Shown: positions 1 through 13,578 of the stretch, in pieces
How positions within the stretch are numbered: the stretch's first letter is position 1
How the letters are laid out: every line of letters begins with the position of its first letter
Assembly (NCBI GenBank): GCA_016213015.1
Contig: JACRCE010000104.1
Coordinates: 1-41,971 of the forward strand
Direction of reading: 5' to 3'
Length of the DNA: 41,971 nucleotides
Source of the DNA: Deltaproteobacteria bacterium
GTDB taxonomy: Bacteria > Desulfobacterota > GWC2-55-46
The notes under the pieces: model-generated
The model's input: only the letters and a program-made list of their open reading frames with translations
What the model was told of the DNA's origin: nothing
Database searches by the model: none
Program-made: the position numbers and the translations under genes

Positions 1-335
1 CATTCTCGCGCAGCGTAGAATCTCGTCTTCAAGGAAATCAACAACTTAGAGATTGCTTCGCCCAGCACCACTTTCGATTACGAAAGCATGTTGCTTAACA
101 AATTTCCTCCTGCAATAAAATGGTGCTGGGCTCGCAATGACAGTTTTCCGTCATTCACGCTTCGCGAAGCAATCTCGTTTAAGCCGTCATTGCGAGGCGA
201 AGCCGAAGCAATCTCGTTTCTTGGCAGGTCGGCGAATAATGTCATTGCCGCGCCCAGCACCACTTTCGATTACGAAAGCATGTTGCTTAACAAATTTCCT
301 CCTGCAATAAAGTGGTGCTGGGCTCGCAATGACAG
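1..335. repeat. Block of interspersed MITE-like repeats
   Basis: This stretch holds two almost identical 70-bp palindromic units at 61-130 and 253-322. Each begins CCCAGCACCAC and ends with its inverse GTGGTGCTGGG (the first copy has one mismatch). Bases 1-60 match 18631-18690, the left half of a TA-flanked MITE-like element, so the window opens inside such an element. The segments between contain CATTGCGAG-type repeat sequence. Open frames here are translated repeat and are not called as genes. Bases 336-456 show nothing recognisable. Confidence 0.85.
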
Positions 336-456
336 AATTAAGTATAACGGATGCGGTAGTCCGAATATGCGCGAACTATAAAGAGTGTGATAACGGCTTG
401 CCGCAAGATAATTCAAAAAAACGGTTAATGCTCGATTAAAACAATTTTAATTTTCC

Positions 457-485
457 TTGACAAGAGCTGCAAAAGCTGTTATCTT
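457..485 (+). promoter_or_regulatory. Sigma-70-type promoter of the first cytochrome gene
   Basis: TTGACA at 457-462 and TATCTT at 480-485 are separated by exactly 17 bases. The -35 box is a perfect consensus match. Transcription would begin near 492 and give a leader of about 160 nt before the cytochrome start at 655. Confidence 0.7.
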
Positions 486-491
486 GAGTTC

Positions 492-654
492 ATGCAAAGA
501 GATTTAGAAGAAAGGCACGGGGCCTTTCGCGGGGCGATGACGCCCTAAAAGACCTGTTTAGCATCTTGGCTACAGGTATGGGTAGTGGGGCAAAGTCTGC
601 CTGCAGGGCTTCAGAGAATTAAAAAAAGACGGAGAGAGAAAAAAGGAGGGGACT
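492..654 (+). promoter_or_regulatory. Structured 5' leader of the hexaheme cytochrome gene
   Basis: Three successive hairpins can be drawn: 511-527 (AAAGGC/GCCTTT), 532-545 (GGGCG/CGCCC) and 552-577 (ACCTGT/ACAGGT). A GC-rich stretch follows at 578-610, then an A/G-rich segment with a strong ribosome-binding site (AAGGAGGGG, about 642-650). The order of stems suggests a cis-regulatory RNA. I do not recognise a known riboswitch class: conserved c-di-GMP-I features such as the GCAAAGCC segment in the right place are absent. Confidence 0.4.
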
Positions 655-1947
655 ATGAGAATGAGACGACTAATAGTTGCGGCAGTATTCTCCCTCGGGC
701 TCGGCCTGTTTGCGACGTCGCAAGACGCGCAAGCGGTGCACAAGAACTATGACAATACGCTTACGTGCGGCAACTGCCACACTATGCATAACAGTCAGGG
801 TTCAACGGCCACAGGAGACGGTAACGCCAGCCTCGGCGGCAGCGCCGGAGGCTCTTTGATACTGCTCCGCGGAGCCGTATCAAGCAGGGCGGAGATACAC
901 AATTTCTGTTTACAGTGCCACGCCTCTAACGGCGCACAGGCGGGCAGCACCTTCAACCCCGGCGGGCATACGGCCCCTAAGGTGTATATCGATGGAAAGC
1001 TGGGCGCTGGTAACAGCGCTGTGGCCGGCACGCTTGATAGCTTCGCGGTAATAGGCGCGGGCGGCGACTTCTCAAGGGAGATAAGCGGCAACAGCAGCGG
1101 ATGGACCACGGGCACTACCGTTGCTCAGGGTTATGGTCACAGCCTCGGCGCGTTGACAGTAACACCTCCGGGCGGCGACGCATCGATCTCAGCATTTTCC
1201 TGCACCAACTGCCATGATCCGCACGGCGCATACGATGCCTCGACCGCGACGGTCAACAAGTATCGTAACTTGAGGATTAGCGCGACAGGCGCGTCCAGCA
1301 ACTCCGGCGTTACGCTCAATAGCGGTATAAAGAGTCACGTTGGCGACAGATCGGGACCGAATCCCGCAAGGTTCACACCGCTTGGTACACAGGGAACAGT
1401 GGCCGCGACAAACCGCACATGGCCGCTCTATGACAACGACGCGGCGCTTACAGGTACGCCCGCTTCGGACGTCTCAAGGAGCAACACCTATCCCGTTGCC
1501 GCTGCAGACGGCTCAGGCACGGACGGTATATCAAAATGGTGCGCTCAATGCCATGACAACTGGCACGAGAATATCGTTACAGCCAACAAGGACTCGAACG
1601 GCTCGGATTGGCACAGACATCCGGTTGACAACAAGTTGCTTGATGCCACGCCGCAATCAGGTGCATCCGTAACAATCATAGACACGGCCAATTATGGCGC
1701 CCAGATAGCGACCTACAAGGCATTGCCAATCGCGGATATAAACGGCACTGCTTCAGGGGTTGCGTACCTGCCTACAGGTCAGGAGGCCAACAGCAAGGTA
1801 TTCTGTCTGTCCTGCCACTTTGCACACGGCGGCCCGTACTATGATCTTTTGAGGTGGGATTACCTGGCCTCTGTCGGCCCTGCCGGTTCACAGAGCGGCA
1901 ACTCGATAGCATCAACGGTAGGTTGCCAGCTTTGCCACAACAGGTAA
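655..1947 (+). CDS. OmcS-like secreted hexaheme c-type cytochrome
   Basis: The 430-residue product has a signal peptide (residues 1-27, ending AQA) and six CXXCH haem sites at 38-42, 85-89, 183-187, 296-300, 384-388 and 424-428. Local motifs CHTMHNS, CHDPHG, WCAQCH, RHPVDN and CLSCHFAHG follow the order of Geobacter OmcS, also a six-haem protein of about 430 residues. Candidate distal haem ligands include His45, His162, His190, His322 and His391. From that family I infer extracellular electron transfer and possibly filament assembly. The start at 655 is preceded by AAGGAGGGG; an ATG six bases later is possible. A promoter and structured leader lie upstream and a strong terminator follows, so it is probably monocistronic. 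A paralogue lies at 5060-6259. Family assignment is firm as a multihaem cytochrome; the OmcS relationship rests on motif order read by eye. Confidence 0.9.
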   Translation: MRMRRLIVAAVFSLGLGLFATSQDAQAVHKNYDNTLTCGNCHTMHNSQGSTATGDGNASLGGSAGGSLILLRGAVSSRAEIHNFCLQCHASNGAQAGSTFNPGGHTAPKVYIDGKLGAGNSAVAGTLDSFAVIGAGGDFSREISGNSSGWTTGTTVAQGYGHSLGALTVTPPGGDASISAFSCTNCHDPHGAYDASTATVNKYRNLRISATGASSNSGVTLNSGIKSHVGDRSGPNPARFTPLGTQGTVAATNRTWPLYDNDAALTGTPASDVSRSNTYPVAAADGSGTDGISKWCAQCHDNWHENIVTANKDSNGSDWHRHPVDNKLLDATPQSGASVTIIDTANYGAQIATYKALPIADINGTASGVAYLPTGQEANSKVFCLSCHFAHGGPYYDLLRWDYLASVGPAGSQSGNSIASTVGCQLCHNR

Positions 1948-1971
1948 GCTCGCAGTAGTAGTAAGCATGAC

Positions 1972-2011
1972 AAAAAAAGGGAGGGGCTGAAAAGCCCCTC
2001 CCTTTTTTATT
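1972..2011 (+). terminator. Rho-independent terminator after the cytochrome
   Basis: AAAGGGAGGGGCT pairs with AGCCCCTCCCTTT around a GAAA loop and is followed by a T-run. The A-run on the other side would also allow use on the minus strand. Confidence 0.9.
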
Positions 2012-2352
2012 TGAGTCAAGAGGAAACTTCTGCCCGCCATTGACTCGGGAGGCCGAAGCAGTCCAAATGTCGTCATTGCGAGCCCAACGCCACTTTCCGC
2101 CACTTAAGCCGTGTATGATAGCCGGCGTTTGTGTCTGTGAGAAAGTGGCGTTGGGGTCAAGCAACTTGCTTTCGTAATCCAAAGCGGCGCTGGGCTGACG
2201 CCTTCCCCGTTTTTCTATTTACATTCACTAATTATAACGATAGAATCAAAGCATCCTCGTCAACGGATATATCAATATCCCTCTTATCTGCCTCTCTCCT
2301 ATGGGCTGGGTGAGGGGCGCTGGAACGATAAACGCAACACAAGAGGCAATAC
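2012..2352. repeat. Intergenic region with a degenerate palindromic repeat
   Basis: CCCAACGCCACTTT (2083-2096) and its inverse AAAGTGGCGTTGGG (2142-2155) enclose a 45-bp loop. Next to it, 2161-2193 resembles the right half of the 70-bp repeat unit found elsewhere. Together they look like a decayed or composite repeat copy. Bases 2200-2352, upstream of the next gene, show no promoter or terminator I can support. Confidence 0.6.
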
Positions 2353-3792
2353 ATGACGGTTTTTTTCAAGAGACTCGAATCCTTCACGCTCATCTGGGCG
2401 CTCTTTTTTATTGTCCTTCCTGCGCTTTTTCCGCAGTCCGTCATGTCCGCCGAGCCTTACAGCGGCCCGCTATCCATACGCCTTAAATACCTGTTCGGCT
2501 TCGACGGAAGCGTCAGCGGCAAGCCCCTTGCATGGGTTGATCAGATACTTGTTGACAATGAACGCGGCGAGGTCTATCTCCTCGACAAGAGCAACAGGAG
2601 GATCGTCGTCGCGGACTTCGCTGGAGTATACCTTTACCAGATAAAGTTCAGCGACGCCAACCTGACCTCTCCCTCGGCCATCGAGCTTGACCCGCGAAAC
2701 GGCGACATATACGTCGCGGAGCCGGGGCGCGTAGCACAGTTGAGTTATATCGGCGTTTACAAAAGCGACGTTAACCTTTCGCGCATATCCGATAAGGACA
2801 AACTCAACATCCAGTCCATCCGTCTTGTTCCCGACGCGGCCGGCAAGGGCGGCACCCTCTATATCGGAGAGGGCGGCAAAGGCAGGCTCATCGTTATAAA
2901 TCTTAACGGCGACGTTATCAAGGAGTTCGGCAGGGCGCAGGGCATCGGCTACAACGTCAAGGACATATACGTTGACAACGACAATATCGCGTTCATTGAC
3001 CCTACCTCATTTGTCATCCTTCGCTTCGGCCACGACGGCGCGCTCAAGAAGCAGTTCGGAACGCTATCGAGCCTTCTCGGCGGCTTCAGCATGCCTTCAG
3101 GGCTGTATGTTGACGGCGGCGCGAGGCGCATATACGTGGTTGACGTCAACAGGATGATGGTCATAGTGTTCGACTGGGACGGCAATCCGCTTTACGAGTT
3201 CGGAGGCCCGCAGATATTCAGCTGGCCGCGCGCCGTGGCCGTGGACAAGAACGGACATATCTATGTCGCGGACAACAGCGGAACGATTCGCGTCTTCGAG
3301 GTGGTCGAGGTAAAGAATATCATAGTCGAGGAGCCGCCGCCCATTGCGCTTCCCCCTGCCCCGCAGGAGCCGCCGCAGGTTGTCGCACCGGAGCCGATCC
3401 CCGCGCCTCCTCCAATCGTCAAGGACGAGGTTGAGAAGATGGTCGAGACAGAGGCAAAGCTCTTGCCCGTGTATTTCGACACCGGCAGCACGTCGATAAA
3501 GAAGGCTCTGCGGGACGCGCTCGATAAGAACGCCGAATGGCTCAATAAGAACCCAGACGTAAGCGTCAACGTGCGCGGCTACGCGGACATGCGCGGAAGC
3601 GACAAGTTCAACCTTGAGCTTTCCAATAAACGCGCAAAGGCGGTAATGAAGTATCTCGTATCCAAGGGCGTCGACGCCAAGAGGATGAAGGTCGTCTCGT
3701 TCGGCAGGGAGATGACGATAAATCCGAACGAGGAGACACTGGCCATGTCGAGAAGGGTGGACTTCTTTGTGGTCAAGCAGGATAGACCGTGA
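2353..3792 (+). CDS. Secreted NHL beta-propeller protein with C-terminal OmpA domain
   Basis: The 479-residue protein starts with a signal peptide (about 1-33). Residues 60-320 hold repeated NHL/six-bladed propeller strands (for example IYVAEPG, LYIGEGGKG, IYVVDVNR, IYVADNSG). A proline-rich linker follows (about 325-355), then an OmpA/Pal-type domain (about 370-479). That domain has YFDTGST, the ADMRGSDKFN segment and LSNKRA, which matches the family's peptidoglycan-binding pattern with its Asp and Arg kept. The propeller would lie in the periplasm or under the outer membrane, tethered to peptidoglycan. It lies between two OmcS-like cytochromes and precedes a second NHL protein, so a scaffold or assembly role is inferred. 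The Shine-Dalgarno (AGAGG) is weak. Confidence 0.85.
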   Translation: MTVFFKRLESFTLIWALFFIVLPALFPQSVMSAEPYSGPLSIRLKYLFGFDGSVSGKPLAWVDQILVDNERGEVYLLDKSNRRIVVADFAGVYLYQIKFSDANLTSPSAIELDPRNGDIYVAEPGRVAQLSYIGVYKSDVNLSRISDKDKLNIQSIRLVPDAAGKGGTLYIGEGGKGRLIVINLNGDVIKEFGRAQGIGYNVKDIYVDNDNIAFIDPTSFVILRFGHDGALKKQFGTLSSLLGGFSMPSGLYVDGGARRIYVVDVNRMMVIVFDWDGNPLYEFGGPQIFSWPRAVAVDKNGHIYVADNSGTIRVFEVVEVKNIIVEEPPPIALPPAPQEPPQVVAPEPIPAPPPIVKDEVEKMVETEAKLLPVYFDTGSTSIKKALRDALDKNAEWLNKNPDVSVNVRGYADMRGSDKFNLELSNKRAKAVMKYLVSKGVDAKRMKVVSFGREMTINPNEETLAMSRRVDFFVVKQDRP

Positions 3793-3808
3793 ACCGTGAT
3801 AGTGAACC

Positions 3809-4717
3809 GTGAAAAGAAAGGCCGTCTTTATAGCCATAAGACGTCTGCTATGTTTATCCGTCGTCATGGCGTTTATCTTTAATGTTGCCTACGCTGGAGA
3901 GCCCGGCCCGGTCGTCAGGTTCAGCCATTCCTTCAACAGACATTACGCCGAGCGGTTCAGCGTACCGGTGGGCATATCCGTAGATAGCGCCAACAACGAG
4001 ATATACGTCATAGACAGCGGCTTTAAGAAGGTTTTCATATTCGATCTTAGAGGCACACCTGTTTTTAGTTTCGGGGCCAAGGAATCAGGCGGCATCGCGC
4101 CGGTTGCCGTCGCCGTAAAAAACGGCCGTATATATATCAGTCTGGAGGGCAAGGGCAACGTCGGGGTCTTTAACTATAAGGGCGCTCCGACCGGAGCGCT
4201 TACCGTGCCGGGCGATTTTTCGCCGGGCGCCATTGCCGTTGACGACAGCGGCATGGTCTACGTCGTAAACAAGTCCCGGACCAACTGCCTCGTTTTCGAC
4301 GGCTCGGGCAAGTTCAGGGCTTCAATCGGCGAGAGGCTCAAGAGCCTATCAGGCGTTGCCGTGGGCAAGGACAGGGTATACCTGATTACGCCGGTTGACA
4401 ACCGCGCCGTTCACGTATACGGCAAAGACGGCGCCTTTTTGTTTTCGTTCGAGGGGCTTGAAGGCGAGGGAGGCACGCTGGGCATGCCCATTGCCGCAAA
4501 GGTTGACAGGCTGGACAATCTTTGGATACTCGACTCCATAAAAGGCATTATCGTCTATAACAAGGACGGCCACGAGATATCAAGGGTCGTCATGCCCGCC
4601 GGAACCGTTGAGGGACAGTTGTTTTTTCCGGTGGACTTTGATATTGACGCCGACGATATGCTCTACGTGGCGGAAAAGGGTGCGAAAAGGGTTAGCGTCT
4701 TCAAGATCGAAAGGTAG
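3809..4717 (+). CDS. Secreted NHL/six-bladed beta-propeller protein
   Basis: The 302-residue product has a basic N-terminus, a hydrophobic signal peptide (to about residue 30, ending AYA) and propeller repeats such as IYVIDSG, IYISLEGKGN, VYVVNKSR, LWILDS and LYVAEKGAKR across the rest. It resembles the propeller half of the upstream gene but lacks an OmpA domain, so it is probably a soluble periplasmic or secreted partner. NHL propellers usually act as protein-interaction platforms; no catalytic function is visible. The GTG start at 3809 lies inside a run of GTGAACCGTGA repeats and no good ribosome-binding site is seen. It starts 16 bases after the upstream stop, so the two are probably cotranscribed. 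Confidence 0.8.
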   Translation: MKRKAVFIAIRRLLCLSVVMAFIFNVAYAGEPGPVVRFSHSFNRHYAERFSVPVGISVDSANNEIYVIDSGFKKVFIFDLRGTPVFSFGAKESGGIAPVAVAVKNGRIYISLEGKGNVGVFNYKGAPTGALTVPGDFSPGAIAVDDSGMVYVVNKSRTNCLVFDGSGKFRASIGERLKSLSGVAVGKDRVYLITPVDNRAVHVYGKDGAFLFSFEGLEGEGGTLGMPIAAKVDRLDNLWILDSIKGIIVYNKDGHEISRVVMPAGTVEGQLFFPVDFDIDADDMLYVAEKGAKRVSVFKIER

Positions 4718-4719
4718 CT

Positions 4720-4860
4720 GGTTGCCTCTAAAAATTGCTATTTTTTCCGATTTCTTTGTCAGGGCAAAAATAAAATGCTCACATATTAGCATATATGCTC
4801 CGCTTTTTATTTTTGCCCTTCCTCGAACTCGGGAAAACTATCTAATTTTTAGAGGCAACC
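4720..4860. repeat. 141-bp near-complete palindrome (MITE-like)
   Basis: The ends are perfect 17-bp inverted repeats (GGTTGCCTCTAAAAATT and its complement). A second inverted pair (GGGCAAAAATAAAA / TTTTATTTTTGCCC) lies inside and an AT-rich loop is at the centre. The whole element would fold into one long imperfect hairpin. It begins three bases after the upstream stop codon and could also act as a 3' stabiliser or transcription barrier. Confidence 0.8.
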
Positions 4861-4903
4861 GTTACGAATGTTCTAATAAATCATGTCAACCACTATAAAT
4901 ATC

Positions 4904-4932
4904 TTTACCCGCAAGATGTTTTATGGTATTAT
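4904..4932 (+). promoter_or_regulatory. Possible sigma-70 promoter of the second cytochrome gene
   Basis: TTTACC (4904-4909) and TATTAT (4927-4932) are 17 bases apart, in the repeat-free gap before the second cytochrome. The leader would be about 120 nt; it contains a short stem (AAGCC/GGCTT near 4970) and a GC-rich stretch near 5020. Confidence 0.4.
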
Positions 4933-5059
4933 TTCTAATAATCAGCTATGAGATGTAATGCCGAAGCCCCTTGGGCGGCTTGTGTTGCATAAGGTGTCCT
5001 TGTTATCTCCTATCCGTTCGGCGGCGGCCTCGGCCTATGATTGAAAAAAAGGCGTGCAG

Positions 5060-6259
5060 ATGAGAACCCCTGCTTTCAAAACACACCTTGGGGCTTCCTT
5101 GGCGGCTGCTATGCTTTTCGTCGCCATGATGTTCTATGGTACGCCTCTATATTCCGGCGAATACCACGCGGTCAAGGAGAAGACCTACTCCGGGACAACG
5201 GAAACGCTCGTCTGTTCGCAGTGCCATACCATGCACGGCTCTCAGGGCGGCTCGTCCATGATCTACGGCGGCGTTGACGCGCAGTACAAGGGCCTTATAA
5301 GGGCCGCCACCATTGTCCAGCTCTGTAAGACCTGCCACGAGAACAACAGCCTCGGCATGTCCAACCCTACTCCGCCGGACGTCTGGAACAACACGCTCGG
5401 TTATCTCGCATCAGCGGGCGACTTCAACGACAGAAACCCGTCCACTCAGAACGAGGCCAACCGCCACTCCATTGACAACACCAATCTGACGCCGCCCGGC
5501 GCGTCCGGCAGCGGCTGGCCCATAGCTTATTTCTCATGCGAGAGTTGCCATAACCAGCACGGCAACAAGAACTACAGAAATCTGCACGTCAGGCCCGGAA
5601 ACTCCTCCTCTGATATAACCGTCAACTACAGGCTCAACAGCACGGGCAACTGTTCGGACGGCACTGTCTCTCCGTGCGACGTAAACCTCGTTACGACAAG
5701 CGGCCTTCCGGCCGGGCAGACGAACCTCTACAAGTTCAATAGGACAAACGTTACGTTCATAAAGGCAGGGTCGTCGTCAAGAGGCGTTGCAAGGTGGTGC
5801 GGCGGCTGTCACAACGACTTTCAGGGCGGGGGCGCGGATACCAACATGGGCGGTTCGACGTCCGGCGACGTCAACACCGGAACCCCGTGGATAAGGCATC
5901 CTGTGCGCGACGTGAGCATCAACGAGGCAAACACGAACGGACACGCGGACAGGTCGAATTGGGCTGGCATCACGCCGACAAGCTCAAGGGTCAGGGCCGT
6001 GAACCCGGATGACACGGACCCGACGTCCGGGAACGCCGACGAGGAGCCGTTTTGCCTCTCATGCCATTACGCGCACGGCGGCGGCAACAAGCTTGCCGGC
6101 GCGGACCCGACGATAAACCACTCCAACCTCGTCATGATAGACGGCAACGGCGTATTGAACATCGAGGCCTCGCCGTCCGATACGTTTATTCCGCTTGACA
6201 GCGCCTCCGCAAGCAGGGCAAGGGTAAGGAACCTTTGTCAGCAGTGCCACAACCAGTAA
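5060..6259 (+). CDS. OmcS-like secreted hexaheme c-type cytochrome (second copy)
   Basis: The 399-residue protein has a hydrophobic signal segment (about 11-32) and six CXXCH sites at 52-56, 89-93, 160-164, 247-251, 332-336 and 393-397. The pattern CSQCHTMHGSQGG, CESCHNQHG, YRNLHV, WCGGCH, RHPVRD, CLSCHYAHGGG and a terminal CQQCHNQ parallels the cytochrome at 655, so the two are paralogues, although loop lengths and much of the sequence differ. Six haems and about 400 residues fit the OmcS-like group; extracellular electron transfer is inferred. I chose ATG 5060 because AAGG lies 7 bases upstream; an in-frame GTG at 5054 is the alternative. No terminator follows; a MITE-like element separates it from the TPR gene. 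Confidence 0.88.
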   Translation: MRTPAFKTHLGASLAAAMLFVAMMFYGTPLYSGEYHAVKEKTYSGTTETLVCSQCHTMHGSQGGSSMIYGGVDAQYKGLIRAATIVQLCKTCHENNSLGMSNPTPPDVWNNTLGYLASAGDFNDRNPSTQNEANRHSIDNTNLTPPGASGSGWPIAYFSCESCHNQHGNKNYRNLHVRPGNSSSDITVNYRLNSTGNCSDGTVSPCDVNLVTTSGLPAGQTNLYKFNRTNVTFIKAGSSSRGVARWCGGCHNDFQGGGADTNMGGSTSGDVNTGTPWIRHPVRDVSINEANTNGHADRSNWAGITPTSSRVRAVNPDDTDPTSGNADEEPFCLSCHYAHGGGNKLAGADPTINHSNLVMIDGNGVLNIEASPSDTFIPLDSASASRARVRNLCQQCHNQ

Positions 6260-6290
6260 TTGTTTTCCCTAATGAAGCGCGCTTGGCAGT

Positions 6291-6436
6291 TAAGGAACCT
6301 CTGATTTATTCTTTTTTTGTCATTGCGAGGAGCGCTTTTGCCTATCGGCATCCTCGTAACTTGCTGATTTGCCTACGAACACGAGATTCTACGCTACGCG
6401 AGAATGACGAACTGTGAATTAATCAGAGTTTCCTTA
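6291..6436. repeat. TA-flanked 142-bp MITE-like element, copy 1
   Basis: Inverted ends AAGGAACCTCTGATT and the matching AATCAGAGTTTCCTT enclose CATTGCGAGG-type sequence. The element proper (6293-6434) is 142 bp, and TA dinucleotides flank both ends, as expected for Tc1/mariner (IS630)-type mobilisation. Copies with the same ends are at 12708-12853 and 18599-18798. Confidence 0.8.
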
Positions 6437-6469
6437 AGCCGGATAACGTCTAAAGGCCGTGTCAATGAC

Positions 6470-6548
6470 AGTGAACCGTGTAAAAGATTTAACCCCCCTA
6501 AATCCCCCTTATCAGCGGGATTTTCACGGTCAACGGTTACGGTTCACG
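6470..6548. repeat. GAACCGTG palindromic repeat
   Basis: GTGAACCGT (6471-6479) faces ACGGTTCAC (6539-6547) across a spacer. The spacer carries another common intergenic motif (AACCCCCCTAAATCCCCCTT, 6491-6510). Related GAACCGTG units occur at 3788-3811 and 14921-14984. Bases 6260-6290 and 6437-6469 show nothing further. Confidence 0.6.
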
Positions 6549-6564
6549 GTTTTTAAGAAATAAC

Positions 6565-6594
6565 TTGATGAAAATCAACGGATTGCGCTATAGT
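6565..6594 (+). promoter_or_regulatory. Possible sigma-70 promoter of the TPR gene
   Basis: TTGATG (6565-6570) and TATAGT (6589-6594) are 18 bases apart, about 110 bases before the TPR start. Confidence 0.4.
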
Positions 6595-6702
6595 GCGGGG
6601 TGTGCGGAGTCTGGAGCAATAGCCTTGGGCAATCCGCTAAATTAAAGCCTTCAGAGCCAAGTCGAGCGGTTGACGCATGGGTATCTGTAAAAGATAGGGA
6701 CA

Positions 6703-7473
6703 GTGAAACGAAATATAATAATCGTCGTTATAGTTGTCGGTATCATAGCAGTCGTTGCGTGGGCAGGCTACGGTTGGTACGTAAGGAAGAATACGCCGCC
6801 TGAGCCTGTTGCTTACAAGGACATCGCGGAACTCGAAGAGGATATAAAAAGGATCGAGTCCCTGCGCGCAACCGGCGCCCTTTCATGGCAGGAACTCTAC
6901 AGGCTCGGCGTGGCATACATACAGCGCGGCAGACCGTCCGAGGCCGTCGGCGCGCTTGAGGAGAGTATGCGGCGCCACAACGGTTTCTTGAAGACTTATG
7001 AGTCCCTCGGCATGAGCTATTTCAGGCTGGACCAACCCGGAAAGGCCGTGGAGACATGGGAGGCCGCGCTCAAGTTCGAGCCCAAGGCCGTGTTCCTCAA
7101 CGAGATGATCGAGCGAGGCAGGAAGAAGATGGAGTATGCCTCGCGTATCGCGGCGCTCGAAAAAGAGATACGTGAGGATAAGGCCGTTGCATGGACAAAG
7201 AGGTTTGAGCTTGCGGCGTTGTATATGAGCGTGAGAAAGCCGGCCGAGGCGCGGACGCTGCTTGAGGAGATACTCAGGGTGAAAAAGGACGTCCCCGAGG
7301 TATATGACGCCCTTGCCGAATCTTATGCATTGCAGGGCGATTTTGTGAAGGCGGTTCAGGCCGAGAAAAAGGCGCTTGGGATAAAGCCGAAAAACGAAGT
7401 CTACAAGAAGAGGCTCTCCGAGATGGAGAGCCTTGCAAAGGGGATGCGTACGGCGAAGTCGAGTAAAAGGTAG
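6703..7473 (+). CDS. Membrane-anchored TPR protein
   Basis: This 256-residue protein has one N-terminal membrane segment (about residues 4-23), then a helical region of tetratricopeptide repeats (for example WQELYRLGVAYIQRG, TYESLGMSYFRLDQPGKA, VYDALAESYALQGD). The TPR part would face the periplasm. TPR proteins commonly hold assemblies together or help c-type cytochrome maturation and secretion; no specific role can be read. The GTG start has a weak AGGGA upstream. It lies between the second cytochrome and the diguanylate cyclase, so it probably belongs with the electron-transfer locus, but a repeat-filled 443-bp gap makes its own promoter likely. Confidence 0.8.
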   Translation: MKRNIIIVVIVVGIIAVVAWAGYGWYVRKNTPPEPVAYKDIAELEEDIKRIESLRATGALSWQELYRLGVAYIQRGRPSEAVGALEESMRRHNGFLKTYESLGMSYFRLDQPGKAVETWEAALKFEPKAVFLNEMIERGRKKMEYASRIAALEKEIREDKAVAWTKRFELAALYMSVRKPAEARTLLEEILRVKKDVPEVYDALAESYALQGDFVKAVQAEKKALGIKPKNEVYKKRLSEMESLAKGMRTAKSSKR

Positions 7474-7557
7474 TTTTCAAGGTAAGCGGTGAATTCTCCG
7501 TAAGTTCTTTTTCCGTTCTTAATCAGAGGCAAACGACAGAGAGAGGAGCGGTAGAAT

Positions 7558-7586
7558 TTGCCGGCCATAAGTATCCGTTATTTTAT
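7558..7586 (+). promoter_or_regulatory. Weak promoter candidate before the diguanylate cyclase
   Basis: TTGCCG (7558-7563) and TTTTAT (7581-7586) are spaced by 17 bases. It is supported only by spacing and position. Confidence 0.3.
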
Positions 7587-7645
7587 CGGATCAGGCAGAT
7601 TTGCCGACGAAGATTGCCATTATGGATAATGAGAAGAGGCTTACG

Positions 7646-9766
7646 ATGAGTTTTTACAGACCCAAACTCGGGGTCGGCACAAAAACCTTAATAGCCCTGT
7701 CGGTGATGTTCTGGGTGCCGGTCGCTGTTCTGACGGCGGTCTTGCTCTATCTTTTTCAAGGACTCATATCAGGCAACATATCCGAATCGCTCCAGATCGA
7801 ACTCAGAGGCGCCAAGCTCGTCTATGAGGAGCGGGGCAACGCGGTTGAAGCCGCTCTGAACCAGATGACCTCCGTGGACTCCACGAAAAAAGCGTTTTCA
7901 CAAAGGGACGCGGGCGCGCTTCGCTCCGTGCTGTATGAATTCGGCAAAAGAAATCCCCATGTCGAGATATTGGCCGTAGTTGACGAGAACCAGCGCGTTA
8001 TCGCAAGGAGGAGCGGGAAGACAGGGGATTATATCAACGTAGGCGAGATACTCTCAAGGTCCCTCATATCCGGCGAGTCGACCGGTTCGGTAGAGCTGGT
8101 CAGCGGCGACGTCCTCGCCATCGAGGAGGCCGGGCGCGATAAACAGATAAAGGACCGCGCACTCGTGCAGTATATCGTATCCCCTGTTCGGTACAACGAG
8201 AAGATTGCGGGGGCGATAGTCGCCGGCATGGTGCTTACGGGCAACCCCTGGCTGGGCAATACGGTATATAACCGCTTCGGCGTCGAGATGGCCCTGTTCG
8301 GCGGGGAACCGGCCGAGTCGGCCTTTCTTCACGCCACGTCATCCGTGCCGAGAAGCACATGGGTTGGCGGTCAGGCCATACCAAGAGAGCTTGGTATGAC
8401 CATGTCGCTCGGCAAGCCGTTTATCGGCACCCTCGGCGTGGCCGGGGTTGACAACCTCCTTGCCTACGAGCCGCTCAAGGACAGCAGGAACAGGATAGTC
8501 GGCGCCATCGGCGTAAGCAGGCCGTCCAGGGACGTCAACGCCATTGTCATAACCGCGCTCGGCAAAGGCGTAGCGCTTGCCGCTATAATCGGCCTGACTA
8601 TAGCGGGGGTGCTCACCTTCTTCATATACAACGACATAACCAAGCCCTTGGGCTTTCTCGTGGGAGCAATGGACGAGGTGGCGGCCGGGAGCTTTAATAT
8701 AGTGGTCGATCTCAAGACCGGGGATCAGTTCGAGCAGCTTGCCGCGGGCTTCAACCACATGGTCCACGGCATAATGAAAAGGGAAGAGCGGCTGAAAAAG
8801 CACAACGAGGTGGCCAAGCTCCTCATGTCGACGCTTGACCTGCGCGAATTGCTGGAGCGCATGTTGAAGATCGTCATCGAGGTTACGGACTCTCAGATGG
8901 GCATCGTCTATCTCTATGACGAGGTCAACGAAACGCTCACCCCGCACGTGCAACACGGCACTCAGGCCGGGCTTAAGTCCTTCAAAAAGGGCGAGGGCTA
9001 CCCGGGGCTTGTCGTGCAGAACAACAAGCAGTACATCCTGACCCTTCCAAAGGAGGCGGCCGAACCGATGGAGATGGGCTTTGCCCAGATAATCCCGGCC
9101 GAGGTGGCGTATATACCGCTGTCGTATCAGGAGAAGATAATGGGCGTTCTTGTGCTCGGCGGGGTTAATAAGTTTACGGAAGACGAGGTGCATCTGTTCG
9201 ACTACCTTGCAAGCCAGATATCCATTGCCCTCGACAACGCCATCATGCACAATAAGATACAGGAACTCTCGCTTACCGATCCGCTTACCGGCCTTTACAA
9301 CCGGCGGTATCTGAACGCGAGGCTGGAGGAGGAGTGGGCAAGGAGCATCAGGCATAATAAGCCGGTGTCCATACTTTTGTCCGACGCCGACAACTTCAAG
9401 TCCGTAAACGATGGCTACGGCCATGACAGGGGGGATGAGGTCTTGAAGACCATCGCCAAGTCGGTCAAGGAGAACGTCAGGAAGGAAGACCTTGCGGCGC
9501 GCTACGGCGGCGAGGAGTTCGTCATCGTTCTGGTGGATACGAAGGCCGAGGAGGCAAGAAAGATCGCCGAGAAGATACTCGCCCTTTCAAGGGCCAACAT
9601 CTATCCGTGGATGGGCAGGGCCGTTACATTGAGCATAGGCGTTGCCACCTTCCCGGACATGAAGGTCGAGAACTTCGAGGAGTTGATTCAGGCCGCTGAC
9701 AAGGCCATGTACATGGCAAAGACCTCCGGCAAGAACAAGGTCGTCATGGCGGAAGGCAAATTGTAA
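7646..9766 (+). CDS. Membrane diguanylate cyclase (sensor-HAMP-GAF-GGDEF)
   Basis: It makes c-di-GMP from two GTP at the inner membrane. The order is an N-terminal membrane segment, a periplasmic Cache-like sensor region of about 290 residues, a second membrane segment, HAMP, GAF and a C-terminal GGDEF domain. The active-site loop is GGEEF (RYGGEEF, codons 9500-9520). RKED lies exactly five residues before the GG pair, which is a product-inhibition I-site, so the enzyme looks active and feedback-regulated. I chose ATG 7646 because AGAGG precedes it at good distance; in-frame starts at 7622 (ATG) and 7601 (TTG) would lengthen it slightly. c-di-GMP often controls exopolysaccharide and attachment, in keeping with the loci to the right. 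A terminator follows. Confidence 0.92.
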   Translation: MSFYRPKLGVGTKTLIALSVMFWVPVAVLTAVLLYLFQGLISGNISESLQIELRGAKLVYEERGNAVEAALNQMTSVDSTKKAFSQRDAGALRSVLYEFGKRNPHVEILAVVDENQRVIARRSGKTGDYINVGEILSRSLISGESTGSVELVSGDVLAIEEAGRDKQIKDRALVQYIVSPVRYNEKIAGAIVAGMVLTGNPWLGNTVYNRFGVEMALFGGEPAESAFLHATSSVPRSTWVGGQAIPRELGMTMSLGKPFIGTLGVAGVDNLLAYEPLKDSRNRIVGAIGVSRPSRDVNAIVITALGKGVALAAIIGLTIAGVLTFFIYNDITKPLGFLVGAMDEVAAGSFNIVVDLKTGDQFEQLAAGFNHMVHGIMKREERLKKHNEVAKLLMSTLDLRELLERMLKIVIEVTDSQMGIVYLYDEVNETLTPHVQHGTQAGLKSFKKGEGYPGLVVQNNKQYILTLPKEAAEPMEMGFAQIIPAEVAYIPLSYQEKIMGVLVLGGVNKFTEDEVHLFDYLASQISIALDNAIMHNKIQELSLTDPLTGLYNRRYLNARLEEEWARSIRHNKPVSILLSDADNFKSVNDGYGHDRGDEVLKTIAKSVKENVRKEDLAARYGGEEFVIVLVDTKAEEARKIAEKILALSRANIYPWMGRAVTLSIGVATFPDMKVENFEELIQAADKAMYMAKTSGKNKVVMAEGKL

Positions 9767-9788
9767 TATAAGAAAATTCGCATTCAAA

Positions 9789-9820
9789 TAAAAAGCCCCT
9801 CCACAAGAGGGGCTTTTTAT
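9789..9820. terminator. Terminator after the diguanylate cyclase
   Basis: AAAAAGCCCCTC pairs with GAGGGGCTTTTT around a short loop, with T and A runs on either side. Confidence 0.9.
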
Positions 9821-9830
9821 TTGTGGCAAT

Positions 9831-9878
9831 TGTAAAAAATGGCGACAAATATTGTCAGCAATGACAATATTTTTTACA
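9831..9878 (+). promoter_or_regulatory. Paired 17-bp boxes upstream of PEP-CTERM gene 1 (candidate PrsR site)
   Basis: TGTAAAAAATGGCGACA (9831-9847) faces an inverted copy TGTAAAAAATATTGTCA (complement of 9862-9878). The inner part is a perfect 11-bp inverted repeat with a 4-base spacer (9847-9872). The pair lies about 90 bp upstream of a sigma-54 promoter, the usual range for an enhancer site. A similar pair lies before the other PEP-CTERM gene. Confidence 0.6.
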
Positions 9879-9970
9879 TCCTTCTTGCTTATGCTCTGCA
9901 CAGAAATATTGCAAAAGAATAAAACGCTGATTTTTCATATAGTTACCTTCAGCCAATTTTTTTAAGGCCG

Positions 9971-9986
9971 TGGCATGTTATTTGCA
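9971..9986 (+). promoter_or_regulatory. Sigma-54 promoter of PEP-CTERM gene 1
   Basis: TGGCATGTTATTTGCA matches the -24/-12 consensus (TGGCACG, four bases, TTGCA) with correct spacing and one mismatch. Transcription would start near 9997, about 47 bases before the ATG at 10044. Confidence 0.8.
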
Positions 9987-10043
9987 TTATATTATGCTAT
10001 AAGATGCAAGAATGTAGTTGATTTTGTTCTGGAGGCTGAAAAA

Positions 10044-10688
10044 ATGAAGAAGCTATTACTGTTGATCGCCGGTGCAATACTGTTCATGGACGCAGCCACT
10101 GCCGACGCCTTGCCGATCACCAACGTTGCATTGAACAAATCGGTAACGCTCAACGGCAGTTTTTTCAGCGGCGGTTGGGGCGGCGGCCGGGTCGTAAACA
10201 AGCAGACGGTTGTTGACGGCGTCTTTTTGCCGCGCAGCAATCAGTGGGACAGAGGGCCTGTATGGTGGGACAGCCATCGCGTATCCGGACAGAACATACA
10301 GATAAACCTCGGCAAACTCTACGAGATCAGCAGCTTCATAGTTCAGGTTGACGACAACGACGCCTATATACTCGAATACTGGAACACGAAAACAAACGCA
10401 TGGAAGATCGCTTGGAACATACCCAACTACGATTGGGTAGGGGGCAGGAATCTATGGGGTATGCAGACAAGGCCGAATATCTATAACAATACGGCGCGAT
10501 ATACGCTCACCTCGGCGATAACGACGGATAAATTGAGGATAAGCGGCAATATGCGGAGCTCAGACAGGTTCTTTGCCGTATCTGAGGTGCAGGCCTTCGG
10601 CAGAGCGGCACAGGTGCCCGAGCCGGCCGCCATACTGCTCCTTGGCGCGGGTATGGCAGGGCTGGCGGCGTTGAGGAAGAGGATTTGA
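10044..10688 (+). CDS. PEP-CTERM protein with discoidin (F5/8 type C)-like domain
   Basis: The 214-residue precursor has a signal peptide (MKKLLLLIAGA to about residue 23). Its single domain begins NVALNKSVTL and continues through NQWDRG and INLGKLYEISSFIVQVD, which resembles the galactose-binding discoidin fold. The C-terminus is a PEP-CTERM signal: VPEPAA, a hydrophobic helix and RKRI. Exosortase would remove this tail and release or anchor the protein in the extracellular matrix; glycan binding is inferred from the fold. GGAGG lies 7 bases before ATG 10044. The upstream sigma-54 promoter and paired boxes place it under a PrsK/PrsR-like system. A terminator follows directly. Confidence 0.88.
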   Translation: MKKLLLLIAGAILFMDAATADALPITNVALNKSVTLNGSFFSGGWGGGRVVNKQTVVDGVFLPRSNQWDRGPVWWDSHRVSGQNIQINLGKLYEISSFIVQVDDNDAYILEYWNTKTNAWKIAWNIPNYDWVGGRNLWGMQTRPNIYNNTARYTLTSAITTDKLRISGNMRSSDRFFAVSEVQAFGRAAQVPEPAAILLLGAGMAGLAALRKRI

Positions 10689-10724
10689 GCTTCCGTGGAG
10701 CAGATTACAAACCTCTAACGCCGT

Positions 10725-10770
10725 AAAAACAAAAAGCCCCATGCAGATTATGCATGGGGCTTTTTGTTTT
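10725..10770. terminator. Terminator after PEP-CTERM gene 1
   Basis: AAAAAGCCCCATGCA and TGCATGGGGCTTTTT form a strong stem (10731-10765) flanked by A and T runs. Confidence 0.9.
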
Positions 10771-10864
10771 GCATGAAAGGGACGTATTATCGTTCTCACG
10801 CTCCGGCCCCCGATAAAGACATTCGAGGGCAGGCCGTGGGAACGTGTCTGTGAGAAAGTTTGTA

Positions 10865-10931
10865 GCGGCGGCAGGAGTTTCCTCCCGCCGCCTTCGTCCG
10901 CCAACGCCGTCAGGAGAAAACTCCTGACGGC
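10865..10931. repeat. Two GCAGGAG-type intergenic hairpins
   Basis: One hairpin (10865-10891) pairs GCGGCGG with CCGCCGC. The next (10906-10931) is a perfect 11-bp inverted repeat GCCGTCAGGAG / CTCCTGACGGC with an AAAA loop. The second motif recurs at 12670-12695, so this is a dispersed repeat rather than a gene-specific structure. Confidence 0.7.
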
Positions 10932-10932
10932 A

Positions 10933-10969
10933 CAAAAAAACCATGCTGAATAGGCATGGTTTTTTTTGT
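10933..10969. terminator. Second terminator-like hairpin
   Basis: AAAAAAACCATGC pairs with GCATGGTTTTTTT (loop TGAATAG). It lies about 200 bp beyond the first terminator. The rest of the gap to 11123 shows nothing else I can support. Confidence 0.65.
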
Positions 10970-11123
10970 TTCATAAAAACAATGGGTGTCTTATCAACCT
11001 TTCTTCCCGATGCGAATCAAGCAAGACGTCTTCGTGGCAGTTGGGCTGACGGTATGGTATCATTGCCGTGAATGAATCCGTCCGTGGTCGCTTGACATGA
11101 ATCGTTTTTTTGAGGGGGGGGGT

Positions 11124-12545
11124 ATGGCTGAAAGGCACGGTATTCTGATAGGCGGACGATTGCGTTCAACCGGGCGCGTACTTGACGTATTCAGCCCCTA
11201 TGACGGTGCCCTTGTCGGCGGCACGTATCTTGCGAGCTTAGAGGAGTTTGAAGATGCCTGCGCCACAGCACAGGCCGCTTATGAGGAGTTGAAGACCTAT
11301 ACCGCATATAAGCGCGCAACGCTGATCAACGCGGTGGTTGACGGGATTGAGGCAAATTGCGATGACCTTGCCCGCACTATCGCGCTGGAGGCCGGAAAGC
11401 CCATAAAGGATGCCCGCATCGAGGTAAAGAGGGCGCAAAACACCTTTCAGCTTGCGCTTGAGGAGGCAAAGCGCATGGAAGGCGCTGTTGTGCCGCTTGA
11501 CGTATCACCCGACGCTTCAGCACGGATCGGCATAATAAGGAGATTCCCGCTCGGGGTTGTGCTTGGCATATCGCCATTCAATTTTCCCCTCAACCTTGTT
11601 GCACATAAAGTTGCGCCCGCAATGGCGAGCGGCAACGCCATAATCCTGAAGCCTTCCCCGAGGACGCCTTTGAGCGCCTTGAAACTGGGCGATATAATCA
11701 TGGCCTCGGGCTGGCCCGCCGGAGGCGTAAACGTTGTGCCTTGCGACAACGCGGACGTCGGCGCTCTGCTTTCGGACGCGAGGATAAAAAAACTCAGCTT
11801 CACCGGCAGTTCCGACGTGGGCTGGGCGCTTAAAGAGAAGGCCGGACGGAAAAAGGTAACGCTTGAGCTTGGAGGCAATGCCGGAGCAATAGTGGAGGGG
11901 GACGCCGACGCCCTGTACGCGGCAAAGAGGTGCGCGATCGGCGCATTCTCCAATGCCGGGCAGGTCTGCATCTCGGTCCAGCGGATATACGTCCAGCGGG
12001 AGGTTTATCATGCCTTCAAGGAGGCCTTCATCAGGAACGCGGTCGGCCTTAGAATGGGAGACCCGCTTGATGAGTCAACCGACATAGGCCCGATGATAGA
12101 CGAGGCGAGCGCAAGGCGCGCCGAGGAATGGGTAAAGGAGGCTGTCAGGGACGGCGCAATCATCCTTGCCGGAGGAAAACGCAACAACAACTTCATGGAG
12201 CCTACGGTGCTTACCAACACGCGGCCGTCAATGAAGGTCTGTGCTCAGGAGCTTTTCGCCACTGTCGTTGCGCTCGAGAGTTACGATGATTTCGAAGAGG
12301 CGTTGAATGCGGTCAACTCAAGCCGGTTCGGGCTTCAGGCAGGGGTGTTTACGAACGACATGAAAAAGGTCTTTAAGGCTTACGACACGCTTGACGTTGG
12401 CGCCGTGGTGGTAAATGACGCGCCCACGTTCAGGGTGGACAACATGCCTTACGGCGGGGTCAAGGAGAGCGGCTTCGGCAGGGAGGGCGTACGGTACGCC
12501 ATTGAGGAGATGACGGAGCCACGGCTTCTTGTTGTCGGAAAATAA
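11124..12545 (+). CDS. NAD(P)-dependent aldehyde dehydrogenase
   Basis: This 473-residue enzyme oxidises an aldehyde to a carboxylate with NAD(P)+ in the cytoplasm. The family's catalytic residues are present: Asn153 in PFNFP, Glu248 in LELGG and Cys282 in NAGQVC. FTGSSDVG (cofactor-binding region) and the C-terminal PYGGVKESGFGREG are also intact. The length is typical. Substrate cannot be read; lactaldehyde, succinate semialdehyde and non-phosphorylating GAPDH-type enzymes share this core. ATG 11124 follows a GAGGGGGGGG ribosome-binding site; ATG 11097 upstream has none. It appears monocistronic, isolated by terminators on both sides, and has no evident link to its neighbours. Confidence 0.92.
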   Translation: MAERHGILIGGRLRSTGRVLDVFSPYDGALVGGTYLASLEEFEDACATAQAAYEELKTYTAYKRATLINAVVDGIEANCDDLARTIALEAGKPIKDARIEVKRAQNTFQLALEEAKRMEGAVVPLDVSPDASARIGIIRRFPLGVVLGISPFNFPLNLVAHKVAPAMASGNAIILKPSPRTPLSALKLGDIIMASGWPAGGVNVVPCDNADVGALLSDARIKKLSFTGSSDVGWALKEKAGRKKVTLELGGNAGAIVEGDADALYAAKRCAIGAFSNAGQVCISVQRIYVQREVYHAFKEAFIRNAVGLRMGDPLDESTDIGPMIDEASARRAEEWVKEAVRDGAIILAGGKRNNNFMEPTVLTNTRPSMKVCAQELFATVVALESYDDFEEALNAVNSSRFGLQAGVFTNDMKKVFKAYDTLDVGAVVVNDAPTFRVDNMPYGGVKESGFGREGVRYAIEEMTEPRLLVVGK

Positions 12546-12608
12546 TGAAGGCAACCTCCCCCGGCCCCTCCTTGGTCTTGTCCTCGCGTACTTCAAGCGG
12601 GGAAAGGA

Positions 12609-12636
12609 GGGGAGCTAAAAACTCCTCCCCTTTTTT
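12609..12636 (+). terminator. Probable terminator of the aldehyde dehydrogenase gene
   Basis: GGGGAG (12609-12614) pairs with CTCCCC (12625-12630) and is followed by six T. The surrounding CCTCCCC/GGGGAGG sequence (12555-12660) is a common type of intergenic repeat and can fold in other ways. Confidence 0.5.
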
Positions 12637-12669
12637 CAAGGGGAGGTAAGGGTGGGGTTGTATTAGCGT

Positions 12670-12695
12670 GCCGTCAGGAGTTTCCTCCTGACGGC
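12670..12695. repeat. GCCGTCAGGAG hairpin repeat
   Basis: A perfect 11-bp inverted repeat GCCGTCAGGAG / CTCCTGACGGC with loop TTTC; same family as 10906-10931. Confidence 0.75.
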
Positions 12696-12707
12696 ATTCT
12701 CTCTATC

Positions 12708-12853
12708 TAAGGAAGCTCTGATTTATTTTCTTTTCTGTCATTGCGAGCCGCGCTTTTGCGGCGCGGCAATCTCTAAGTTGTTGATTTCCTTGAAGACGGG
12801 ATTGCTTCGCGGAGCGAGAATGACGGGTCGGCGAATAAATCAGAGCTTCCCTA
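12708..12853. repeat. TA-flanked 142-bp MITE-like element, copy 2
   Basis: The ends are AAGGAAGCTCTGATTTATT and the inverse AATAAATCAGAGCTTCCC, flanked by TA at 12708-12709 and 12852-12853. The element proper (12710-12851) is 142 bp, the same length as the copy at 6293-6434. Confidence 0.85.
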
Positions 12854-12858
12854 ACCAC

Positions 12859-12900
12859 AAATACAAAAGCCCCGTTCGTTAGAACGGGGCTTTTGTATTT
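12859..12900. terminator. Bidirectional terminator between convergent genes
   Basis: AAATACAAAAGCCCCGTTC pairs perfectly with GAACGGGGCTTTTGTATTT around GTTA. It serves both the aldehyde dehydrogenase (+) and the PEP-CTERM gene (-). Confidence 0.92.
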
Positions 12901-12927
12901 TAAGTCTTTAACAACTGCTTGTACGGA

Positions 12928-13578
12928 TTACATCGCCCTCTTGCGGAGCCACAGACCCGCGCCTACAAGGCCGCTGCCAAGGAGGAGAAGGGTTGACGGC
13001 TCAGGAACCTTTGCGATGTCGCCCTTTGAATGACCAGTGAAGTCGCGACGGAACATCGTTGACGAGAAGTTCTGGCTCAGATTGAAGGCAAGGTTTACCA
13101 TGCCGCCGCACATGCCCATAGGACCGCATATAAAAGACGATGCGAGTGAGCCGCCGGTTACGTTGAATCTTGCTTCGCCGTAGCCGAGGTTGCTGCCGTC
13201 CTTGCCGGTGATGCTCGCCGATATGAATGTGCCGGTAAGGAGCGTTGTGGAACTGCCGTCCACGATGGTCAGGCTGCCGCCGGTGAAGTTACCGGTTGTA
13301 TAGCCGCCCATGCTGCTGGAGCCTGCAAACACCATGTCGTAATTCACATAACCGCCGGGGTTGGTTACTACATTCCAGGGCATTGTGAGTGATACCAAGC
13401 GCGCATTGACATTCAGCAGGCCGCTTGAGGCGTTATAGGTAAGCCCACCGCCCGGCATACCCACTGTGTCAAAATTTACGTCCGGCAGCGTAAGCGTTAT
13501 GGCTTCGCTGTTTTTTGCGCTGAACATTACAACCATTGCAAGCGCGATGAATAAAGCAACTATCTTTCTAACCTTCAT
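12928..13578 (-). CDS. PEP-CTERM exported protein (second)
   Basis: The 216-residue precursor has a signal peptide (about 1-26), a Gly/Ser/Thr-rich beta-strand body of no recognised family and a C-terminal sorting signal: VPEPST, a hydrophobic helix and LRKRAM. Three residues before VPEP lies GDI, which is a normal linker. Exosortase would process it for the cell surface or matrix. AGGAAAGGAG precedes the ATG. It has its own sigma-54 promoter with two 17-bp boxes upstream, like the PEP-CTERM gene at 10044. A bidirectional terminator follows. Function beyond extracellular matrix is unknown. Confidence 0.85.
   Translation of the reverse strand: MKVRKIVALFIALAMVVMFSAKNSEAITLTLPDVNFDTVGMPGGGLTYNASSGLLNVNARLVSLTMPWNVVTNPGGYVNYDMVFAGSSSMGGYTTGNFTGGSLTIVDGSSTTLLTGTFISASITGKDGSNLGYGEARFNVTGGSLASSFICGPMGMCGGMVNLAFNLSQNFSSTMFRRDFTGHSKGDIAKVPEPSTLLLLGSGLVGAGLWLRKRAM

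Follow-up and report, generated by a model that had tools for sequence, protein, structure and literature searches.

The window, the 41,971-nt stretch of DNA analysed here, comes from an uncultured bacterium and presents close to its start two genes for hexahaem c-type cytochromes with two genes for NHL proteins between them, all on the forward strand. The first cytochrome, CytA (655..1947; 430 aa, ATG start), is a predicted secreted OmcS homologue, and the second, CytB (5054..6259; 401 aa, GTG start), is an OmcS homologue of a distinct subfamily. Each has six CXXCH sites and a Sec signal without a lipobox (signal and lipobox judged by eye) in a chain of about 400-430 residues. The inner pair, assigned by Pfam, consists of an NHL beta-propeller with a Pro-rich linker and a C-terminal OmpA-like (peptidoglycan-binding) domain (2353..3792; 479 aa) and of a second NHL beta-propeller, NHL2 (3809..4717; 302 aa). 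The first-pass annotation had described this arrangement of ORFs and the order of the haem motifs, and both stand: CHTMH at haem 1, CHDPHG or CHNQHG at haem 3, WCxxCH followed by RHP around haem 4, CLSCHxAHG at haem 5 and CxxCHN at haem 6. The OmpA-like domain of the first NHL protein is a feature additional to that description; some relatives have it and others do not. NHL2 is located directly 5' of CytB in 13 of the 13 CytB loci of the order. In the window the two genes are separated by a near-perfect palindrome of 145 nt (4718-4862; -62.1 kcal/mol, z=-12.6), which looks like a MITE-like insert.

A promoter-like site, TTGACA-17-TATCTT with TG before the -10 element, lies 5' of CytA (457..485, forward strand); as a consensus match alone, it is suggestive of a promoter. 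A strong intrinsic-terminator-like hairpin (1973..2008, forward strand; -29.5 kcal/mol, z=-6.2) follows CytA directly, and a transcript of its own is therefore possible for CytA. Beyond CytB are genes for a TPR protein (6703..7473), which is 3' of CytB in most relatives, and for a Cache-HAMP-GAF-GGDEF diguanylate cyclase (7601..9766), both on the forward strand and assigned by Pfam. The cyclase gene also lies 3' of the module in two relatives (L022, L031), and its membership of the locus is uncertain. The cyclase and an HD-domain response regulator (L058:577-1692) stand on either side of the cytochrome genes, a hint that cyclic dinucleotides may control them. A GEMM riboswitch was considered and rejected, as Rfam gave mere noise below the gathering score in window 1-13000 and no match at that score in C13, C52 and five relatives' loci. 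Farther 3' (9975-40529), the window encodes PEP-CTERM proteins, a long polysaccharide biosynthesis cluster and an XrtA-type PrsK/PrsR two-component system scoring over the cut-off.

Homology to OmcS and the histidine ligands

The PDB search gave OmcS (6EF8) as the lone significant match of both cytochromes, with E=2.5e-10 for CytA and E=2.4e-6 for CytB. The filaments of OmcE, OmcZ and AvECN/PcECN, a work-alike class of polymeric multihaem wires, were not among the results of this search and have no sequence match to either protein. As a control, 1000 shuffles were made in which every CXXCH and its spacing were preserved and the rest was shuffled. CytA scored 38.7 bits with OmcS compared to a shuffle maximum of 9.0 bits (n=1000), and CytB scored 27.7 bits compared to 12.3 bits (n=1000). 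A likeness confined to CXXCH is thus ruled out by the motif-preserving shuffles, and the earlier claim of homology beyond these motifs is borne out. Profile-profile comparison with the Geobacter-type OmcS family gave E=1.9e-35 for the CytA family and E=7.9e-23 for the CytB family, versus E=1.6e-4 for the control, a 5-haem family of the same clusters that is unrelated; CytA compared with CytB gave 3.3e-44. It is highly improbable that the likeness is due to chance or is generic to CXXCH proteins: the overall identity is low and the motifs inflate the scores, but 0 of 1000 shuffles reach the score, the 5-haem family matches far more weakly, and an osc-type cluster is present in the genome. Judged by sequence, CytA and CytB are real homologues of OmcS.

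OmcS of Geobacter sulfurreducens (GSU2504; PDB 6EF8/6NEF) is like CytA and CytB in its order of six CXXCH sites, its length and its Sec signal, and further in the histidine right after the signal peptide, the CHTMH at haem 1 and the conserved distal histidine candidates. In contrast to OmcS, CytA and CytB each fall in clades of their own, and CytA has just ~21-30% identity to OmcS-type homologues. A third OmcS-like gene of the same genome is found outside the cluster (C52:415-1722), and a degenerate two-haem DNA pattern searched through the whole genome gave nothing. In homologues of other lineages (L088, L097, L102, L109, L110) a CX5CH-like sequence replaces CXXCH at haem 3.

Ligand conservation was assessed in an alignment of 52 six-haem homologues. 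All 12 axial histidines of the OmcS pattern, six proximal and six distal candidates, have counterparts in CytA and CytB, so that the OmcS ligand set is kept in both proteins. Eleven of the 12 columns are invariant or nearly so; the twelfth histidine, at the mature N terminus, is kept as well, with the CytB-family copy one neighbouring column off (43 + 8 of 52). CytA has its proximal histidines at 42, 89, 187, 300, 388 and 428 and its distal candidates at 29, 45, 162, 190, 322 and 391. The conserved 12 of CytB are at 38, 58, 61, 95, 138, 166, 169, 253, 282, 338, 341 and 399, to which the subfamily adds His297 and His356 of its own; every one of the 13 CytB members of the order keeps the 12 and these two. 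CytA His304 (OmcS 247) was rejected as an essential ligand, being kept in 37 of 52 homologues only and replaced by Gln in CytB. The 12-histidine set includes ligands that any such monomer needs, and this counts against a polymer reading of it.

The second histidine of CHTMH (CytA H45, CytB H61), which corresponds to OmcS residue 16 in 6EF8 numbering, is present in 49 of the 52 homologues, and H45 is invariant within the CytA family. We take OmcS His16 to be the residue with which one subunit ligates haem 5 of its neighbour. The first-pass annotation had suggested looking for an inter-subunit histidine where haem 6 meets haem 1; this point requires a small correction, as in OmcS it is a ligand of haem 5, and not of haem 1 or 6, that is donated by the neighbouring subunit (PMC6584659; PMC12203936). 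Three Geobacter/Geomonas paralogues adjoining the osc block (L111:14358-15734, L121:14282-15598 and L142:15977-17299) have CHSKT or CHATG in place of CHTMH, and their loss of this histidine argues that it is not a trivial residue. From their sequences these paralogues are possible non-polymerising or cap forms.

In the tree, CytB is a separate clade with a support of 100. Orthology of CytB to OscC (GSU2501) was not found, as CytB does not group with the hexahaem proteins of the Geobacter osc block. A strong CytB match is likewise missing from the Geobacter L111 and Nitrospirota L118 genomes, where the search gave weak cross-hits only. GSU2501 and OmcT offer a parallel in that several diverged OmcS paralogues adjoin one assembly block; CytB differs from them by its separate clade and its two extra invariant histidines. 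The account of the osc operon in PMC12977616 leaves both of those paralogues without an assigned function. CytA, the NHL-OmpA-like gene, NHL2 and CytB also occur in one stretch in a Nitrospinota genome (L083/G429), with a 26-haem gene in that locus, and the module therefore crosses phyla. By its sequence CytB is a new, distinct OmcS-like subfamily, which nearly always accompanies CytA.

The AlphaFold2 monomers of CytA (mean pLDDT 56, pTM 0.63) and CytB (mean pLDDT 39) were too poor to judge a subunit interface. Foldseek of the PDB with the low-confidence CytA model (pLDDT 56) gave 0 matches, which agrees with a published finding that for OmcS both Foldseek and DALI retrieve solely itself and close homologues (PMC9473688).

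The osc-type assembly cluster and its linkage to CytA and CytB

Another contig of the same genome, C13, carries genes for a propeller, a ~770-aa protein, CsgG-like lipoproteins, a SurA-like PPIase, a 26-haem cytochrome, a 15-haem cytochrome and an NHL protein. The genes for the OscH-type PPIase, the 26-haem OscI (26 CXXCH, 672 aa) and the 15/16-haem OscJ stand in series on the minus strand (C13:8426-3677). On the 5' side of OscH are a propeller of YNCE/YVTN type (OscD-type) and three CsgG/GNA1162-like genes, whose Pfam scores are weak, with one reaching the CsgG cut-off; the propeller and CsgG-like genes are homologous to those at the same positions in Geobacter loci. A ~490-aa gene before the 26-haem gene was considered as the porin of a porin-cytochrome conduit and rejected, the protein being the SurA-like PPIase. 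The order on C13 is that of the Geobacter/Geomonas loci, which run hexahaem, propeller, ~760-aa protein, CsgG-like, CsgG-like, PPIase, 26-haem, 16-haem and NHL.

The osc (omcS companion) block of Geobacter comprises GSU2500-GSU2493 (PMC12977616), with GSU2495 as its 26-haem gene (PMC12977616; PMC2996986) and GSU2497 as a lipoprotein (PMC3495685). Roles for OscH, OscE-G and OscD are described in PMC13194489, which, like PMC12977616, summarises Shen et al. 2025. By gene count, the conserved NHL gene would be the eighth member of the block. In the Geobacter and Geomonas loci it follows the 16-haem gene, in agreement with the NHL-omcS association named in the first-pass annotation. The likeness of C13 to the known cluster thus extends from the OscD propeller through a ~760-aa OscE-like protein, CsgG-like OscF/G, OscH, OscI and OscJ to the NHL gene, in the same order. 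The window genome differs in having three genes more (a 5-haem one, a HAMP one and a third of CsgG-like type) and 15 rather than 16 haems in OscJ. Its hexahaem genes come downstream of the block, accompanied by the NHL-NHL-CytB module and by genes for a 3-haem lipoprotein and an HD-domain response regulator.

The 26-haem protein, used to scan 84,980 species genomes, gave at least 80 loci. Among those listed are loci of Deltaproteobacteria, Desulfobacterales, Nitrospirae, Nitrospinae, Acidobacteria, Krumholzibacteriia and others, Geobacter and Geomonas included, so that the osc block marked by this gene occurs across many phyla. In L089, L094 and L130 one ORF with 42 CXXCH takes the place of the separate 26-haem and 16-haem genes, which looks like a fusion of OscI with OscJ. 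An ORF of at least 3789 aa with at least 15 CXXCH (L059:7634-19001, on its own contig C53) lies near 9-haem and 5-haem genes.

Relatives have, 5' of CytA, the genes for the ~490-aa protein, the 26-haem and 15-haem cytochromes, the NHL protein, an HD-domain response regulator and, as a rule, a 3-haem lipoprotein; in the window genome C13 carries them all. The osc block is contiguous with CytA in L021/L069, L024/L076, L025/L071 and L032, and in sister genomes the osc-type cluster is contiguous with CytA-NHL-NHL-CytB. In the window genome (G000) the start of C13 is where the block breaks off, and contig C78 begins with the window. The two contig ends have a common repeat (window 148-321 versus C13 174-1, 97.7% over 174 nt); with synteny, it makes linkage of the osc block to CytA likely in this genome. 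Copies of an interspersed ~90-nt repeat are seen at several contig ends (window 52-143 and 244-335, C13 1-174, and the end of C52), and this repeat probably caused the assembly breaks around the locus. One further genome (G027) has the osc block on one long contig and the CytA/CytB module on another, which speaks against the extended-locus reading.

Co-occurrence was counted in 48 genomes of the order (both/one/one/neither). The 26-haem gene gave 11/2/2/33 with CytB and 11/2/2/33 with CytA (Fisher p=2.4e-7 each), and CytA with CytB gave 12/1/1/34 (p=2.4e-9), where all these p-values ignore shared ancestry and so overstate independence. CytA and CytB agree in 46 of the 48 genomes and are found together in 12 of the 14 that have either. 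Two of the exceptions in these counts are genomes 79% and 87% complete. The contiguity in sister genomes and the co-occurrence of CytA, CytB and the 26-haem gene across the order argue that an extended osc/OmcS nanowire locus has its distal half here.

Models for a two-paralogue OmcS-type system

We consider it probable (roughly 0.7) that an extended osc-type nanowire cluster has its distal part in this stretch, with CytA the likeliest filament subunit and CytB a co-inherited paralogue. This reading is based on homology, the conserved ligand set, gene order and co-occurrence; that CytA polymerises and conducts, how it is exported, and what the propellers and CytB do are inferred. The nanowire proposal of the first-pass annotation is strengthened, short of proof, by the osc-type assembly cluster encoded in the same genome. 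CytA would be exported, would fold around a row of six bis-His haems, and would cross the outer membrane via the osc machinery of C13: the SurA-like PPIase OscH, the CsgG-like lipoproteins and the propeller OscD. The 26-haem, 15-haem and 3-haem cytochromes would feed it from the periplasm. Its subunits would be joined head to tail, the histidine next to haem 1 reaching a haem of the neighbouring subunit. CytB is a diverged paralogue of CytA, and the two are encoded and passed on as a pair. CytB may be a second filament or a donor, the two options of the first-pass annotation, or else a cap or a monomeric partner. The NHL proteins would be envelope propellers, probably a scaffold for export or assembly, and one of them would be tethered to peptidoglycan in the window genome. 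Whether nanowires are the physiological conductor of Geobacter is itself a matter of dispute, as put in PMC11077965.

Two readings of CytB are sub-hypotheses that may be compatible with the osc nanowire explanation. Tentatively, CytA and CytB could form two independent homopolymers, one wire each, for different potentials or conditions. Both keep the 12 histidines with that of CHTMH (13 of 13 in CytB; H45 invariant in the CytA family), the strong terminator after CytA would allow the two to be expressed apart, and G. sulfurreducens makes several different wires (PMC12954529). Separate wires need no pairing, however, and the two genes are together in nearly all genomes with either; the two subfamily-specific invariant histidines of CytB also speak against it. 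The second sub-hypothesis, which we regard as rather unlikely, is a heteropolymer in which CytB caps a CytA wire, forms its base or serves as a connector, for example to the 26/15/3-haem chain of the periplasm or to the exit through the outer membrane. The near-obligate co-occurrence and frequent adjacency with CytA favor such a role, and His297 and His356 could be ligands of another metal or of the haem of a partner; but the cytochrome wires known so far are all homopolymeric (PMC11936953), and CytB retains the histidine that would allow chain extension. It is likewise doubtful that one or both proteins are secreted or periplasmic hexahaem carriers with an OmcS fold and no filament. The Geobacter/Geomonas paralogues devoid of the CHTMH histidine provide a precedent, but both CytA and CytB families keep this residue, and the assembly/secretion block co-occurs with them.

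At the level of genes, it is well supported that the locus belongs with the OmcS/osc nanowire systems, as a new two-paralogue variant and in a lineage new for them. A lineage distant from Geobacter keeps a near-fixed OmcS-like pair plus the assembly block. Through the co-inheritance of CytA with CytB, what the second paralogue does becomes open to testing, down to exact residues in the form of the subfamily-specific histidines. More speculatively, and in our estimate unlikely, CytA and CytB would be one two-component wire in which CytB, by virtue of its two extra invariant histidines, is the dedicated base, cap or connector; if true, it would be the first case of a heteropolymer among cytochrome nanowires and would supply the link that is missing between the wire and the periplasmic cytochrome chain. 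The locus bears on how OmcS wires start, end and attach to the cell.
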